From contig JAQGPB010000577.1 in NCBI GenBank assembly GCA_028293265.1, positions 1-5,171 of the forward strand: DNA of 5,171 nt, given 5' to 3'. Under the pieces are notes generated by a model that was not told the origin of the DNA, did not search any database, and saw nothing but the letters and a program-made list of their open reading frames with translations. This document shows, in pieces, positions 690 to 4,702 of this stretch (position 1 is its first letter; every line of letters begins with the position of its first letter). A program made the position numbers and the translations under genes. Source of the DNA: Pedosphaera sp. (GTDB lineage Bacteria; Verrucomicrobiota; Verrucomicrobiae; Limisphaerales; Pedosphaeraceae).

Positions 690-735
690 GCAACACGGGG
701 TTGAGGGTGGATGATTAAAAGGCGAACCGTGTTGC
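690..735 (-). promoter_or_regulatory. Alternative hairpin competing with the terminator
   Basis: On the minus-strand RNA, GCAACACGG (735-727, the loop and part of the 3' terminator arm) is perfectly complementary over nine pairs to CCGUGUUGC (698-690), which ends two bases before the ATG at 687. Forming it would break the terminator at 719-748 while covering the start region of the next gene. A second copy of GGCAACAC (759-752) could also pair with the same site. This is attenuator-like logic, but it is inferred from pairing alone; a nine-base match over this distance can arise by chance. Confidence 0.3.
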
Positions 736-860
736 CACGGCTCGCCTTCATGTGTTGCCCTTTTGGAATTGAAAACGGAAACACCTTGAACGGTCAAGGT
801 GGAAAGTGACCGGGCGAGCGCCTTGAAGTGAGCGCCCGCCCGGCCGGGCTTGCAAGCCGG
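717..860 (-). ncRNA. Candidate structured RNA ending in a terminator
   Basis: Read on the minus strand, four stems follow one another. The first is a palindrome GGCTTGCAAGCC (858-847). The second is a 12-pair stem with arms 843-832 and 821-810 around a 10-base loop. The third is an 8-pair stem with arms 801-794 and 789-782 around a 4-base loop. The last is the 13-pair terminator. The one imperfect position in each of the second and fourth stems is a G-U pair on the minus strand and A-C on the plus strand, which points to function as minus-strand RNA. It could be a small RNA processed or transcribed from the end of the head operon, or a 5' regulatory leader of the gene at 687. No known RNA family is recognised with confidence. 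Confidence 0.4.
719..748 (-). terminator. Intrinsic terminator of the head operon
   Basis: The minus strand reads AAGGCGAGCCGTG, loop GCAA, CACGGTTCGCCTT, then TTAATC. This is a 13-pair stem in which the single imperfect pair is G-U on the minus-strand RNA but A-C on the plus strand, so the hairpin suits minus-strand transcription. The run of four Us includes the last two bases of the stem. It lies about 215 bases after the stop of the coiled-coil gene and about 30 bases before the ATG at 687. Confidence 0.7.
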
Positions 861-963
861 GACATTTCCGGCCTTCTTCGCCAGCACGTAACCAGTCCAA
901 CCAGGAATGAAAGTCCGGGGTGGAAAAACCGCGCTGGAAAATGTTTGGCGGCGGCGCACAGAA

Positions 964-1545
964 TTATTCAGTCGCAAAAGTCCACGGATTTTCCCCGGCG
1001 ATCAAGGCGGCGAGCACGGGCAATGCCTGCGCCGCGCGGTTTTCGATGTTCTCGCCATCGTTAAACCATCGGCGTTGAAAGAAGCCGATGAAACCAAGGT
1101 ATTCCGGGGCGAGCTTGACCACGGCTTCAAGGTGTGGGGAACTGCTGCCAAAAACAGGCTTGAGGGATTTGGCGATCCGCTTGGCGAGCTTGTCGCATTC
1201 CGGCAGGGTGGCGTGCGGGATCAGGCCGTTGAGACTATCCAGGTGGCGGGCCAGTTCCGCGCTTTTGTCCGGGATGTCGGCCAACAGTTTCGCAGCCTGG
1301 CGTTGCAGCAACTCCAATTGGGCGATCTTGCCTTTCAGGCTCAAGGAGGCTTCCTCATTGTTGTATGAAGTGCTTTCCTCCAATTGAACAATTTTTTGCC
1401 TCAAATCGGCCTCGTCTGTCCGCATCTTTCCCAATGTGGCGGAGACAAAGGTGAGATGCTTATAAAGCGGTTCAATGGCGCTGTAGGCCGACTGCAAGGC
1501 GGGAACCCTGGCGGGGTCAAGGGCGATGGACTGTTTTGGTGTCAT
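964..1545 (-). CDS. Coiled-coil protein downstream of the capsid gene, unknown function
   Basis: This encodes a soluble 193-residue protein with no signal peptide or membrane segment. Residues about 40-108 form a long amphipathic, Leu/Glu/Lys/Gln-rich stretch (for example DLRQKIVQLEES and LKGKIAQLELLQRQAAKLL) typical of a coiled coil, interrupted around residues 58-68 by an STSYNNEEAS segment. A more globular C-terminal part follows, with aromatic residues in EYLGFIGFFQRRWF (148-161) and a hydrophobic helix near 172-183. I do not recognise the family. It is the last gene of the run before the terminator, 32 bases after the capsid stop, where phages often carry head-completion, decoration or connector genes; that role is only positional inference. 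The ATG at 1545 is preceded by CACCAATAATT, nearly the same as the sequence before the capsid start. There is no Shine-Dalgarno site. Confidence 0.75.
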   Translation of the reverse strand: MTPKQSIALDPARVPALQSAYSAIEPLYKHLTFVSATLGKMRTDEADLRQKIVQLEESTSYNNEEASLSLKGKIAQLELLQRQAAKLLADIPDKSAELARHLDSLNGLIPHATLPECDKLAKRIAKSLKPVFGSSSPHLEAVVKLAPEYLGFIGFFQRRWFNDGENIENRAAQALPVLAALIAGENPWTFATE

Positions 1546-1577
1546 AATTATTGGTGTGGTATGTGGAGTTTTTCTGT
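1546..1577 (-). promoter_or_regulatory. SD-less, G-poor leader
   Basis: The 32 bases between the capsid stop and the next ATG contain a single G on the mRNA strand and no Shine-Dalgarno match. They end in CACCAATAATT directly before ATG. The capsid gene leader ends in CCCCAATAATTT, so CCAATAATT is shared by the two most closely similar leaders. Confidence 0.45.
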
Positions 1578-2528
1578 CTATATGAGAGCGCCCATCGCGC
1601 CGGGGTTGGTGATGGCCGGTAGCGTTGTCCAGTCCATTTTAAGCACTTGGTCGCGTTCGTCCTCGCTGGAGTAAGCGCCGGATTTGAACAAGCCTCCTCT
1701 GACCGTGAATGTCTTGGCAAACGATTGGTCCATGCGATTGGGCGTATCGCTGCTGGCGAACACCAGGACCATGTTGTCGAGAAAGAACTGAATGTTTTCC
1801 GGCATGCCTTCCGCGCTCATGTCAATCACCATCTGCGACATGCGGACCTGCGGTTTGGTCATCAGCATCTCGGATACGTCCTCAATCTGCGGGGAAAGCA
1901 ACCCCAATGTGCCGGCGGGGGCGGCGGGCAGATCGGATACCACGAACCGGGATTTTATGAGCGGGTTGTTTCGGAACTGTTTGAACTTGGAGGGGCCGAA
2001 AAGCACCTTGATCGGCGCGCCATTCTTGGCGGCCTTGACGACCTTTAAAATAAGGGCGTCAATCAAAGCGACGGGGTCAACGAAGGGGTCTGAGAAATCC
2101 GCCTCCTGGGTGAGCGGCGAGGCCAGCGAGGCCGCCTGTGCGCCGGTAATGATCTCATTTTCCAAAGCCATGGCGGACGCATCGGCAAGACAGCCGGTGC
2201 CTTCCATCATCGCAAATTGAAGCCCCTCATCACTCAAGTTGTCTGCATTGTGAATGGGGAAGTCCAGGGCATTGGGTTGCAGGACTGCAACAACATCGTC
2301 GGCGGAGAAGCCGATTTGAGTCACCCCGCCGCCTGGCTGCCGCCGGGTGATCGGCACCTTGTAACGGTTCTTTTCCGTGTATTTCTTGTAACGGAAATTG
2401 ATGTCCGGCACTTCGCAGATCGGCGCGATGAACTGGCCGACCGGTCGAATCGCATTCTGACTCGACGTAACGGCGAAGTTGGAAAGCAGGGGTGAGGTGG
2501 CGAATTGGGCTATGCGGGAGAGGGCCAT
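1578..2528 (-). CDS. Phage major capsid protein (HK97-fold type, putative)
   Basis: This encodes a 316-residue protein that would form the icosahedral shell. Features expected of this group of capsid proteins appear in order. FIAP with a following RYKKY (33-50) matches the pattern of a conserved Ala-Pro followed by a basic/aromatic strand. SADD and LDFPIHNADNLSDEGLQFA (75-105) introduce the long acidic helix. Then come the DPVALIDALILKVVKAA helix (151-167) and VLFGPSKFKQFRNNP (175-189), and then NMVLVFASSDTPNRMDQSFAKTF (252-274), a strand, loop and strand with a Ser-x-x-x-Thr-Phe end. The end, ITNPGAMGALI, resembles the VTNP-x-A-x-LI C-terminus common in the family. Length is normal for a capsid subunit. 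It follows the protease and the two repeat proteins, the usual protease-scaffold-capsid order. The family call is from memory of motifs, not a search. ATG at 2528 is the first start after the previous stop and has no Shine-Dalgarno site. Confidence 0.8.
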   Translation of the reverse strand: MALSRIAQFATSPLLSNFAVTSSQNAIRPVGQFIAPICEVPDINFRYKKYTEKNRYKVPITRRQPGGGVTQIGFSADDVVAVLQPNALDFPIHNADNLSDEGLQFAMMEGTGCLADASAMALENEIITGAQAASLASPLTQEADFSDPFVDPVALIDALILKVVKAAKNGAPIKVLFGPSKFKQFRNNPLIKSRFVVSDLPAAPAGTLGLLSPQIEDVSEMLMTKPQVRMSQMVIDMSAEGMPENIQFFLDNMVLVFASSDTPNRMDQSFAKTFTVRGGLFKSGAYSSEDERDQVLKMDWTTLPAITNPGAMGALI

Positions 2529-2580
2529 AAATTATTGGGGTTTGGGGCGGTGGTTGAGTTTTGGTGAGTGGTGGATTTGT
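2529..2580 (-). promoter_or_regulatory. Long SD-less leader of the capsid gene
   Basis: These 52 bases separate the 79-residue gene from the capsid start. They form the longest spacer between the head genes and contain only one G on the mRNA strand. They consist of C/A-rich blocks such as CCACCACTCACC and CTCAACCACC and end in CCCCAATAATTT before ATG. An unstructured leader would suit strong translation of a highly made protein without base pairing to 16S rRNA. Confidence 0.45.
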
Positions 2581-2820
2581 TTAAGCCGGCGCGGTTTCAC
2601 GCCGCGCCATGCCGATGGCCGTGGCCAGAGACAGGCCCGGATTTGCTGCTCGGATTTCAACGGCGCGGTTCATGATGAATTTTGCGCCTTCCTGGGCATG
2701 TTCATTTTGGGCCATGGCCGTCGCTGTAACCAGGGAAAGGCCCGGCGTGGCTTGTTGCAGGCGCGTGGCGCGGTTCAAGATTAACTTGGCGTCTTGATCG
2801 GACAGTGTGTTTGGTTTCAT
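2581..2820 (-). CDS. Small protein made of a tandem 35-residue repeat, scaffold-like
   Basis: This 79-residue protein consists almost wholly of two copies of one unit: residues 11-40 (AKLILNRATRLQQATPGLSL and onward) and 46-75 (AKFIMNRAVEIRAANPGLSL and onward). The 30-residue units share 17 identical positions and start 35 residues apart. The DNA of the two copies is still visibly alike, so the duplication is fairly recent or kept under constraint. The pattern (helix with N-R-A, turn at P-G-L-S, then an Ala-rich helix) resembles short helical motifs seen at the C-termini of phage head proteases and scaffolds. Its place between the protease and the capsid supports a scaffold or assembly role, which is inference. 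ATG at 2820 follows a 27-base G-poor leader with no Shine-Dalgarno site. The opposite strand has an open frame here, but it lacks the repeat-plus-context logic. Confidence 0.7.
   Translation of the reverse strand: MKPNTLSDQDAKLILNRATRLQQATPGLSLVTATAMAQNEHAQEGAKFIMNRAVEIRAANPGLSLATAIGMARRETAPA
2591..2790 (-). repeat. Two-copy tandem repeat, 105-base period, inside the small gene
   Basis: The block encoding residues 11-40 (2790-2701) and that encoding residues 46-75 (2685-2596) keep long similar runs, for example around the shared gcgcggttca and aggcccgg segments. The period is 105 bases, exactly 35 codons, so the reading frame is kept. This is a coding duplication rather than a mobile repeat. 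Confidence 0.6.
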
Positions 2821-2847
2821 TGTGTGGTGTTGGTTTTGTCTGCTGAA

Positions 2848-3168
2848 TCATTCCCCGGCCATGAACTTGAAAAGCTCAGGTTCGGCGCGACGCGTCCGGT
2901 CATATGCGGTTTCAAAATCCGAATTGTCGGCAGCCTGCCGGTTGAGGACCAGTTTGTTGAACCGGGTGGCCGCTTTGGCGCGGTTTTTCAACAGGCCGTC
3001 CTTTAAAATTTGCTTAAAACTGTCCGTGTCCGGCATGGCTTCCCACAGGTCGGGAAATTCCTTCATCACGGCGGCGTAAGCCTCGCTCCATGAAATGCCG
3101 CGCTCTTTTTTGAGTTGCGCGGCCTTGGAGTTGAAGGCGATGGCGGGGCTTTTGCTGTTTGGGAGCAT
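2848..3168 (-). CDS. Small head-module protein with two helical repeats, scaffold-like
   Basis: This encodes a 106-residue, charged, soluble protein. Two 34-residue segments align without gaps: from FNSKAAQLKKERGISWSEAY (12-31) to PDLWEAM (39-45), and from FNKLVLNRQAADNSDFETAY (70-89) to PELFKFM (97-103). They share F-N at the start, A-Y in the middle and P-(D/E)-L with a closing M. The same helix-turn-helix-like layout, with an acidic P-E-L end, is known at the ends of Mu-like protease/scaffold proteins and is echoed in the next small gene. A scaffold or scaffold-fragment role is therefore likely but not proven. The start at 3168 is six bases after the protease stop, so the two are very probably co-transcribed. 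No Shine-Dalgarno site is visible. Confidence 0.7.
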   Translation of the reverse strand: MLPNSKSPAIAFNSKAAQLKKERGISWSEAYAAVMKEFPDLWEAMPDTDSFKQILKDGLLKNRAKAATRFNKLVLNRQAADNSDFETAYDRTRRAEPELFKFMAGE

Positions 3169-3174
3169 AAATGT

Positions 3175-3780
3175 TTAACGGGGTCGGGAGTTGTGGGTTG
3201 GAGGGCGGAGCGCCGCACGGTTGGCATCCTCAAAAGCGCACTGAATATCATCGGCCAGGTTTATTTTCTCTTCCTGCGCCATGGTTGCGCGGTTGGTGAT
3301 GGGGGTGAGCAGTTCCTTGCCGTTGGCCGCATTGGTGAAACCAATGGTGTCCACCTTGAGGATGCGCACACGGTTGCCATCCAGCGGTTGAGTGTCTTGG
3401 GGATCGGCCACGAAACTGGTAAATTTGAACCGTTTGTTTTGGATGGCGGCGCGGCCTAGATCGGTAAGCCCGTCATCACTTGCCCAGATGCCATCGGCGC
3501 GCTTTTCAAAATCCTTGAACCAGGCAAAGGCGGCGGAGCTTTGCTTGTCGTCGTAAATAAAGTGCTCCTCGCCGGCATACAGGCCCGGCCAGTTGTCACC
3601 CAAACGCTTTTTGTCGGCGGCGAGGTTGGCCAGGATGGCATCCATGGATTTATCATCGAGGACTTGGACTATGCCAGCCTCGGGATTGGGCAACTCGCCC
3701 TTGGGGACAATGTGAATAAACCCGCCATCGGCGCTAATGGGGTTGGCGCGGTTGCAAATGATGAGATGGTGCGGATTCAT
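3175..3780 (-). CDS. Mu gpI-like phage head maturation protease
   Basis: This encodes a 201-residue protein of the Mu-like prophage I family, which cleaves scaffold and head proteins during capsid assembly. Motifs appear in family order: IHIVPKGELPNPEAG (22-36), the glycine/proline-rich N-terminal core; WPGLYAGEEHFIYD (64-77), equivalent to the conserved Asp/Glu-His-Phe segment with His73; a Ser/Ala run and FEKRADGIWA (91-100); then LGRAAIQNKRFKFTSFV (108-124), matching the family's R-x-Y-R-Y-x-S-P-V-F block with the candidate nucleophile Ser122; and IGFTNAANGKELLTP (146-160), matching the GLTN-x-P region. Which residues are catalytic is inferred from the family pattern. Mu gpI carries a longer C-terminal scaffold part; here only about 40 residues follow, and scaffold-like repeats sit in the next two genes. 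ATG at 3780 overlaps the upstream stop as ATGA, which suggests translational coupling. Confidence 0.85.
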   Translation of the reverse strand: MNPHHLIICNRANPISADGGFIHIVPKGELPNPEAGIVQVLDDKSMDAILANLAADKKRLGDNWPGLYAGEEHFIYDDKQSSAAFAWFKDFEKRADGIWASDDGLTDLGRAAIQNKRFKFTSFVADPQDTQPLDGNRVRILKVDTIGFTNAANGKELLTPITNRATMAQEEKINLADDIQCAFEDANRAALRPPTHNSRPR

Positions 3781-3968
3781 AAGGTGCGGTGATTCTTTTT
3801 CAATGCTTTGTAGCGTTGATGCAAGTCGGCACTGCCGATGCGTTTACTATTCAGGACCAGGCGGAGATGTTCCTCTGATACACCCAATTTAGACGCCATC
3901 ACTCCAATACCTTTGAAGCGCGTTTTTGCGCCCCAAGGTCTGCCGCGTTTAACGACGGTATTTGTCAT
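3777..3968 (-). CDS. Small AT-hook plus helix-turn-helix DNA-binding protein
   Basis: This 63-residue protein is the first gene of the minus-strand operon. KRGRPWGAKTR (7-17) contains the RGRP core of an AT-hook, the minor-groove motif. Residues 22-43 (VMASKLGVSEEHLRLVLNSK) fit a short Cro/XRE-type helix-turn-helix with the usual L-G-V-S turn and a V-L-N-x-K-R end. The total size is Cro-like. It diverges from the XRE repressor gene across the CTAAC-site region and overlaps the protease start by ATGA, so the two are made together. It may act on the divergent operators, like Cro, or as a late-gene regulator; both are inference. The ATG at 3968 has no Shine-Dalgarno sequence and follows a TATATG stretch, leaving room for a very short leader. 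Confidence 0.7.
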   Translation of the reverse strand: MTNTVVKRGRPWGAKTRFKGIGVMASKLGVSEEHLRLVLNSKRIGSADLHQRYKALKKNHRTL

Positions 3969-3974
3969 ATACGC

Positions 3975-4026
3975 CTAACCGTTAGCGTGTTTTGCTAACC
4001 TCGTCAATAGCATTTTGTGCTAACGG
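3975..4026. promoter_or_regulatory. Divergent operator region with four CTAAC half-sites
   Basis: Four copies of CTAAC or its complement lie within 52 bases between the divergent genes: CTAAC at 3975-3979 facing GTTAG at 3981-3985 around a single C, then GCTAAC at 3994-3999 and GCTAAC at 4019-4024. CCGTTAGC (3979-3986) and GCTAACGG (4019-4026) form an exact 8-base inverted pair. This is the expected layout of operators for an XRE-type repressor encoded next door. A TTGACG hexamer on the minus strand (4007-4002) is the likeliest -35 of the head operon and would lie among the sites; no convincing -10 goes with it. Confidence 0.5.
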
Positions 4027-4036
4027 AAATCCGCAA

Positions 4037-4065
4037 TTGCTCTTCCTCTTTGGCCGGATTATCAA
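4037..4065 (+). promoter_or_regulatory. Candidate promoter of the XRE gene
   Basis: TTGCTC (4037-4042) and TATCAA (4060-4065) are separated by 17 bases. Transcription would begin near 4072, just before the GTG starts at 4073 and 4082, so the mRNA would have almost no leader. The match to a sigma-70 consensus is moderate only. The CTAAC sites lie upstream of this -35, where a bound repressor could leave its own gene on. Confidence 0.3.
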
Positions 4066-4081
4066 TTCAGGTGTGGAAAAT

Positions 4082-4702
4082 GTGAAAGTCTCAAAAAGAA
4101 AACCGCTGGCGAAGCGCGAGCAGGGCGTTGGCAAAAGGCTGCGCGAGGCACGGGAACATCTGCGATTGTCCCAAAAGGAGTTTGCCGCCCAAGTTGGCAT
4201 TTCGCGCCAGCGTTTGGCGAGTTATGAAGAGTTGAGAGCGCCGCTGCGGTTTGACCTGGCCTTGAAAATATGTCGCCAGTTTGTAATTGGCGAAAAGTGG
4301 TTGGCAACGGGTAAGGGCGTGGCGCGGGCGTGCTATGATCTGGCCTCGGAAAGCGCCGCACATCACATCCCAATTGATATGCCTTATGGTCAATCTTTTG
4401 ATCAATGGCTTGGGAGAATCTATGATGAACTTGAATCGCAGGGCGGCGGGAAAAGTCACCTTCTGCTACACGACATGGATGGGGTTGACCTGATTAAGAA
4501 TTGGCTTCTTTTCTGCGTTGAAGTTTGGTTTAGCGCGGACAAAATTCACCCAATGCCAAAAGGTTTTTCTGGCGGTCTTTTCTCATTCTTATTCAACAAT
4601 GGCAATGACTATGTTGAGTTCGTGTTAAAGCATAAGAGGCTTCCAACGAAAGAGGATTTTGAAATCGGAATCGAAAAGCAAATGCCGGGCGCGGGGAAAT
4701 GA
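4082..4702 (+). CDS. XRE-family transcriptional repressor-like protein
   Basis: This encodes 206 residues from the chosen GTG. Residues 19-50 hold a classic Cro/C1 helix-turn-helix: RLREAREHLRLSQKEFAAQV, then GISRQRLASYE, in which the first helix carries Q31 and E33 and the recognition helix follows the G-I-S turn. LALKICRQFVIGEKWLATGKG (59-79) completes the five-helix domain. The C-terminal 120 residues are unlike LexA/CI peptidase domains: I see no Ala-Gly cleavage site or Ser/Lys pair, so SOS-type self-cleavage is not supported. Residues 145-183 are aromatic-rich (WLLFCVEVWF, FSGGLFSFLF) and of unknown role. It faces the head operon and probably binds the CTAAC sites between them. GTG at 4082 has an AGGTG at 4069-4073 with 8-base spacing; an in-frame GTG at 4073 is an alternative. 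A frame extension to TTG at 3992 would run through the operators. Confidence 0.8.
   Translation: MKVSKRKPLAKREQGVGKRLREAREHLRLSQKEFAAQVGISRQRLASYEELRAPLRFDLALKICRQFVIGEKWLATGKGVARACYDLASESAAHHIPIDMPYGQSFDQWLGRIYDELESQGGGKSHLLLHDMDGVDLIKNWLLFCVEVWFSADKIHPMPKGFSGGLFSFLFNNGNDYVEFVLKHKRLPTKEDFEIGIEKQMPGAGK

Follow-up and report, generated by a model that had tools for sequence, protein, structure and literature searches.

What the chain of hairpins at the end of a phage head-gene row is for was the question raised by the stretch of DNA analysed here (the window; 5,171 nucleotides of a Pedosphaera sp. contig). The hairpins lie on the minus strand between the head genes and the next gene, and an earlier note, made from the letters of the window, had read them as a strand-specific folded RNA that might be linked to the capsid genes in the manner of the Mu-gpT-DE motif. 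We examined the genes around the segment, its stems and fold, its standing as a terminator, its relatives, and the hairpins found at the corresponding place in related phages.

Gene order and coding content

The gene order on the minus strand is p63, the Mu-like head maturation protease (3175-3780, with a PF10123 match below its cut-off), p106 (2848-3168), p79 (2581-2820), the major capsid protein gene (1578-2528; phrog_1005, E 4e-19), P2 (964-1545), the hairpin segment, and P1 (178-696). The plus strand carries an Xre-type regulator and one further open frame. Both p106 and p79 are short genes, and p79 is similar to the C-terminal end of the relatives' protease-scaffold gene. The nearest relatives of the capsid protein in the protein database are 66-67% identical to it, and the named records with relatives are mostly Verrucomicrobiota and related phyla (80/82 loci kept).

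The two genes that flank the hairpins are orphans. P2, on their 5' side, closes the row of genes in the proposed head transcript; P1, on their 3' side, starts at GTG 696 or ATG 687. A protein database search for relatives of P1 and P2 returned only P1 and P2 themselves, no P2 relatives were found in viral contigs, and the matches of both in genomes were at chance level only. The P1 frame is the best of the six for its stretch, yet its coding score is low (0.015 per codon), and its structure predicted from the single sequence had a mean pLDDT of 53.6. Several frames cross the hairpin segment itself, namely a 321-aa minus-strand frame (12-977) and shorter ones. The long frame scores -0.178 per codon versus +0.19 to +0.24 for the capsid, protease, p106, and P2 genes, which were part of the training set for the codon scoring. 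The description of the segment as carrying no gene therefore holds with regard to the coding score of the long frame but not with regard to open frames as such.

Some further features of the locus were observed. The leaders of p79, the capsid gene, P2, and P1 on the minus strand are A/C-rich and G-poor with no evident Shine-Dalgarno sequence, and several related loci are alike in this; the P1 leader, the 20 nt after the U tract of the last hairpin, is G-free. The last codons of p79 overlap a hairpin (2586-2610, minus strand; -14.8 kcal/mol) located 5' of the capsid gene. Within 964-4702, the protease and capsid genes adjoin a small gene and the divergent Xre-type regulator, and the terminase and portal genes that stand before the protease in the related locus L006 are absent. 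The protease is 201 aa long in the window versus 355 aa in L006. This stretch may be a capsid cassette in reduced form, satellite-like or domesticated, or else a rearranged or misassembled contig. In the related locus L010 (3289-7954), a capsid gene 63% identical to that of the window stands near HAD hydrolase and MurJ genes, the locus has no protease match, and the contig stops 865 nt after the capsid gene; it is either a solitary capsid gene or an assembly artefact.

Stems, fold, and strand

All four stems that had been described between the head genes and the next gene were found, and a fifth was taken from the fold. Listed by position on the minus strand, S1 (arms 719-731/736-748; 13 nt, 92%) has 13-14 pairs including one G-U and belongs to an element at 717-748 that has a UUUU tail at 717-720 and is the proposed intrinsic terminator. 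S2 (782-789/794-801; 8 nt, 100%) is a perfect hairpin followed by UUUCCGUUUU. S3 (810-821/832-843; 12 nt, 92%) reaches 15 pairs when extended to 808-845, exceeds all other hairpins of the contig in stability, and has no U tract. S4 (844-852/853-861; 9 nt, 89%) is a short GC-rich palindrome adjoining S3. S5 (arms 881-888/930-937), which lies beyond the coordinates of the earlier note, is a weak outer stem with a long loop and one G-U, and its energy is equal on both strands.

The argument for the minus strand had been drawn from the two longest stems, and it was borne out for both: the sole imperfection is G-U on the minus strand and A-C on the plus strand in S1 and, within 810-843, in S3, which gains a second minus-strand G-U when extended to 808-845. 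S1 has an energy of -24.0 kcal/mol on the minus strand versus -18.2 on the plus strand, and S3 has -31.7 versus -23.7. However, S4 is slightly more stable on the plus strand (-8.1 versus -6.2 on the minus strand), which counts against the minus reading, and its mismatch is uninformative on strand because it is C-C on the minus strand and G-G on the plus strand. A weak 7-pair stem at 856-872 has an A-C on the minus strand, contrary to the strand reading. Two to four concordant G-U pairs alone are weak evidence of strand, and for the window's own chain the strand evidence of this kind stays at its three or four pairs.

The minus strand of 717-863 folds at -78.5 kcal/mol compared to a shuffled mean of -48.0 (z -7.6), and none of 200 shuffles was as stable. 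Over 697-963, z was -5.3 on the minus strand versus -2.2 on the plus strand. When both strands of the contig were scanned in 150-nt intervals with 25 shuffles each, the four most unusual intervals were on the minus strand at the hairpin segment (z -6.7 to -4.0), and the best plus-strand interval had a z of -3.2. The fold of the hairpin segment is beyond chance and suits a minus-strand RNA. As a sign of a strand-specific RNA, the chain thus has the fold excess and a terminator signal that points along the minus strand on its side, and S4 and the stem at 856-872 do not agree with it.

S1 and the probable end of the head transcript

S1 has a stable GC-rich stem and a U tract on the transcribed strand, and it is directional and lies after P2 at the end of the gene row, with P1 close behind on the same strand. 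By a d'Aubenton-Carafa-type score, S1 (721-746, TTTTAATC tail) scored 24.3 and was the sole strong intrinsic-terminator candidate in the contig; the next-best score was 3.4, none on the plus strand was above 0, and the maximum of 30 shuffles was 13.8. S2 did not score above 0. A simple terminator scan with a stricter U rule lists S2 and omits S1, and it gave fewer sites in the window (5) than in shuffled sequences (8.5). S1 is like intrinsic (Rho-independent) terminators in its GC-rich stem, short loop, U tract, strand, and place at a gene-row end, and unlike them in that the U tract is short, two or three extra hairpins lie upstream, and a gene begins only 20 nt (GTG 696) or 29 nt (ATG 687) past the U tract.

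From the observed stems, strand asymmetry of the fold, terminator score, and gene order, we conclude that the segment probably provides the 3' untranslated region, including an intrinsic terminator, for the minus-strand transcript of the head genes, which comprises the protease, the short genes, the capsid gene, and P2. An operon end is the simplest reading of the segment, and such a terminator region is the most likely one, a new capsid-linked RNA class being less likely. The termination, read-through, protection, and expression ratios that we infer for it would arise in the following way. RNA polymerase passing P2 would transcribe S4, S3, S2, and then S1, where the hairpin and UUUU tail would release some or all transcripts. 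S2 may provide extra pausing or weak termination, and S3, which is very stable and has no U tract, may shield the message from 3'-end decay. P1 would be carried on read-through transcripts at a lower level. Since P1 starts 20 or 29 nt past the U tract, its expression from the head transcript, if this occurs, would make partial read-through likely.

Related loci also count for a terminator. In L001, L002, and L006, the next gene past the capsid gene is followed by a strong hairpin. Of 83 relatives, 21 have a terminator-like score above 10 no more than 150 nt from the capsid stop, versus 0 of 399 windows inside capsid genes. Counting against it, the U tract is only four long, a full stop sits oddly with a same-strand gene 20-29 nt beyond, no hairpin lies directly 3' of the window's own capsid gene, and S3 and S4 are unexplained by termination.

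The closeness of the P1 start to S1 also suits a different function, that of a cis-regulatory leader of P1, in which S1 would be an attenuator and an outer helix would mask the P1 start in read-through transcripts, switched by refolding or by a bound protein. The minimum free energy fold of 660-770 contains such a possible helix on the minus strand (752-760 with 688-696, span 688-760), which encloses S1 and covers the P1 start region. With S1 fixed, 28 of 1,000 flank shuffles were as stable, and over 620-810 this was the case for 2 of 500. However, the direct alternative that breaks S1, an antiterminator competing with it, is about 14 kcal/mol worse and was rejected, so that no switch is evident, the Rfam scan gave no known riboswitch or leader family, and no P1 relatives were found for a comparison. 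The outer helix over the P1 start is suggestive only, and we consider regulation of P1 by a leader unlikely.

The terminator reading can be compared to the signals of other phages. In T7, the terminator Tphi immediately follows the gene for the major capsid protein. The published account of the T7-like phage LUZ100 describes what appears to be a strong terminator directly behind its major capsid gene and likens it to T7 (PMC10134795). The window likewise has a hairpin signal where its capsid region ends; such a signal presumably sets capsid above downstream genes. In contrast, the proposed signal in the window is one gene further on and belongs to another host and polymerase. By analogy, the window's chain would act like late-operon terminators, one gene later.

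Searches for relatives of the segment

The Mu-gpT-DE RNA is placed downstream of gpT-type genes, and its likeness to the segment is that of an RNA near a Mu-like capsid gene. RF03012 bears this name in PMC7657543. Among the five Rfam matches to the window at E up to 10, all of which were below cut-off, RF03012 did not occur; the match to COG2827 RNA (RF02938; 808-859, minus strand) had 19.6 bits versus a cut-off of 49.1 and an E of 5.4. No Mu-gpT-DE match exceeded the cut-off of 49 bits in 9 relatives, and none did in 14 control genomes. At the gathering score, Rfam gave 0 matches in 11 and in 9 related loci. The proposed check of the segment against covariance models therefore yielded no family over cut-off, and a special capsid-linked RNA of the Mu-gpT-DE kind is not supported.

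Searches with the DNA itself gave a similar result. The minus strand of 697-1600 matched 11 phage records in short pieces only, and the capsid protein had no match in the same collection. In 9 of 13 related genomes or records, 697-963 matched in pieces no longer than about 40 bases. Among 288 genomes from the phylum of L008, two matches to S3 were found (36-39 bases, 85-86%), which are perhaps chance. The palindrome pattern of S1 occurred in none of the viral contigs, and that of S3 occurred in five. A homologous segment was found in none of the phage records, related loci, related genomes, sampled genomes of the phylum, or viral contigs. Conservation beside related capsid operons, which a special RNA had been expected to show, was thus not seen, and this weakens that interpretation. 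The best single piece, in L092, is 29 bases long and 97% identical to window 928-955 (E 2e-5 for a single genome), and it lies away from any similar segment.

Hairpins after capsid genes in related phages

Hairpins at the end of the capsid region were then compared across 88 of 91 related loci, which were kept if they had a plus-strand match, a stop codon, and 150 nt beyond it. A hairpin of -20 kcal/mol or lower was present within 150 nt of the capsid stop in 37 of the 88 loci versus 8 of 420 windows inside capsid genes, which, in this count as in the others that use them, are not an intergenic control. The comparison of gene ends is nearer to one. It used the 83 loci left when the near-duplicates L005, L044, and L078-L080 had been dropped; other close relatives remain among them. 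By a strand-symmetric measure, 17 of 54 recognised capsid ends had a hairpin versus 27 of 570 other plus-strand gene ends. The 54 are those among the 83 capsid ends that the ORF rule identified, and wrong frames may be present among the 570; the Fisher value of 8.5e-9 is inflated because of the remaining close relatives. The gene following the capsid gene had a hairpin at 6 of 74 ends, with little excess over the other ends (27/570). The excess therefore belongs directly after the capsid gene, and the window's chain lies one gene later than this position.

Individual loci varied. L013 has a strong hairpin at a distance similar to that in the window. By the stem measure of the strand test described below, no stem exceeded the limit over the 900 nt that follow the capsid gene in L003, L008, L011, and L012; nevertheless, an energy scan lists hairpins there in all four. 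A long palindrome (CCCTCTCCGCC...) occurs twice in L011 (697-727 and 1105-1135 from the capsid end) and near-identically in L012 (711-739), and it is repeat-like. The hairpins of the family are often not textbook terminators, since 7 of 17 strong post-capsid stems have at least five T in the next eight bases.

The strand test of the family treated G-T and A-C alike when stems were found and then counted them on the transcribed strand. In the 150 nt or less after the capsid stop, there were 27 G-T and 6 A-C (83 loci; P 3e-4), compared to 28:27 inside capsid genes and 56:57 over the next 2.85 kb with a score limit of 20. After stems similar to kept ones were removed and 9 loci were added, giving a set of the 88 loci and 9 of the 14 loci of a viral subgroup scan, the ratio was 26:5 (P 2e-4) versus 26:28 inside capsid genes; counted by stem, it was 17:2. 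The base composition after capsid genes has no bias toward G-T. The counts were 12:8 at non-capsid gene ends and 1:1 after the gene following the capsid gene, too few to judge. This clear G-U excess on the transcribed strand indicates that the stems directly 3' of the capsid gene are kept as RNA. The G-U argument that the earlier note had made for the window thus holds in related phages for the stems at that position.

A loop-conserved hairpin in one subgroup

Seven genome loci share the core CGTCCGATCCG (CGTCCAACCCG in L033) in a post-capsid hairpin whose stems differ. These CGUCCGAUCCG-loop hairpins lie at L017:8036-8064, L025:7981-8008, L031:7941-7970, L032:7977-8005, L033:7940-7967, L034:7953-7981, and L035:7931-7958. 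The stems of L031, L033, and L035 differ from that of L034, and their capsids are 92-95% identical to its capsid. The subgroup scan yielded 14 viral loci. In L160-L164 the core was found 16-29 nt after the capsid stop, and it was absent in L165-L169, as it was within 700 nt in L036; L170-L173 are distant and had no model match. The hairpin is therefore present in 12 of 18 branch-capsid loci (L017, L025, L031-L036, and L160-L169), some of which are near-duplicates. It stands alone right behind the capsid gene, and in most loci its 5' arm is bulged.

The core occurred once per fetched locus in 12 of 12, with 0.24 expected over all 12, which were loci chosen for having the core. In ten loci, at most 12 of 300 flank shuffles were as stable as the hairpin, and its stability was weak in L160 (73/300) and L164 (34/300). 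Of 11 pairs, 9 are altered on both sides across the seven sequences, and the covariation score was reached by 0 of 500 shuffles; three of these same sequences had supplied the model to which the alignment was fitted. Rfam 15 had no match for the hairpin in the seven loci at the gathering score or in L034 7900-8060 at E up to 10. The string GUCCGAUC was in no phage paper by title among the matches listed, and a keyword search gave none on the hairpin. The model (R1) matched 33 of 387 genomes with a per-genome E of no more than 0.05, and 30 matches were made into loci, mostly of about 3 kb, with a capsid match in none. Multiplied by 387, the best three E-values were about 0.03, 0.06, and 0.12 and the next was about 0.5, and we therefore do not claim a spread of the motif outside the capsid setting.

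The hairpin looks like a specific RNA motif that is possibly protein-binding. It is a candidate new RNA motif and a more novel lead than the window's chain. The window itself had no match to R1 at E up to 5 and so lacks this loop hairpin. The two are alike as transcribed-strand hairpins at the capsid region of related phages, and they differ in that the window has neither the conserved loop nor the post-capsid position.

These family results also bear on whether the window's segment might be a structured non-coding RNA or capsid-linked RNA element, either released from the head transcript or embedded in it. Its z of -7.6 over about 150 nt and its hairpins in series would suit such an RNA, as would the relatives' post-capsid stems kept as RNA and the loop-conserved hairpin that one subgroup has there. 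However, the segment has no Rfam match, no relative, no match to R1, and no shared loop, and S1 is accounted for by a terminator; we regard this possibility as quite unlikely. A DNA-level or repeat element (recombination, packaging, or mobile-repeat palindromes) with the RNA fold as a by-product is very improbable: the palindromes are GC-rich, an S3-like pattern occurs in five viral contigs, and L011 and L012 contain repeated palindromes, but in the strong stems the imperfect pairs agree with a single RNA strand, both in the window and after the capsid genes of the family, and no copies of the segment were found in the 13 related genomes or records or in the 288 sampled genomes, for which two candidates were scored per genome.

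Implications

An operon-end terminator region remains our preferred reading of the segment, and the earlier interpretation is partly supported overall. The segment marks a probable end of the head transcript, and its fold is explained without a new RNA class. Counting G-U versus A-C provides an alignment-free test of whether hairpins lacking sequence conservation function as RNA, and its outcome was clear for the post-capsid stems across a whole phage group. The CGUCCGAUCCG hairpin, to which this count also led, is a specific candidate motif that is open to a protein-binding test. As a broader and doubtful proposal, Mu-like phages of Verrucomicrobiota and their kin may control their head genes by RNA hairpins located where the capsid region ends. 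In one branch, the hairpin would be of a sequence-conserved, probably protein-binding type, with the CGUCCGAUCCG loop and a mostly bulged 5' arm, and it would perhaps be recognised by the capsid protein or by a regulator of the phage. The chain in the window would be a lineage-specific version of this control.
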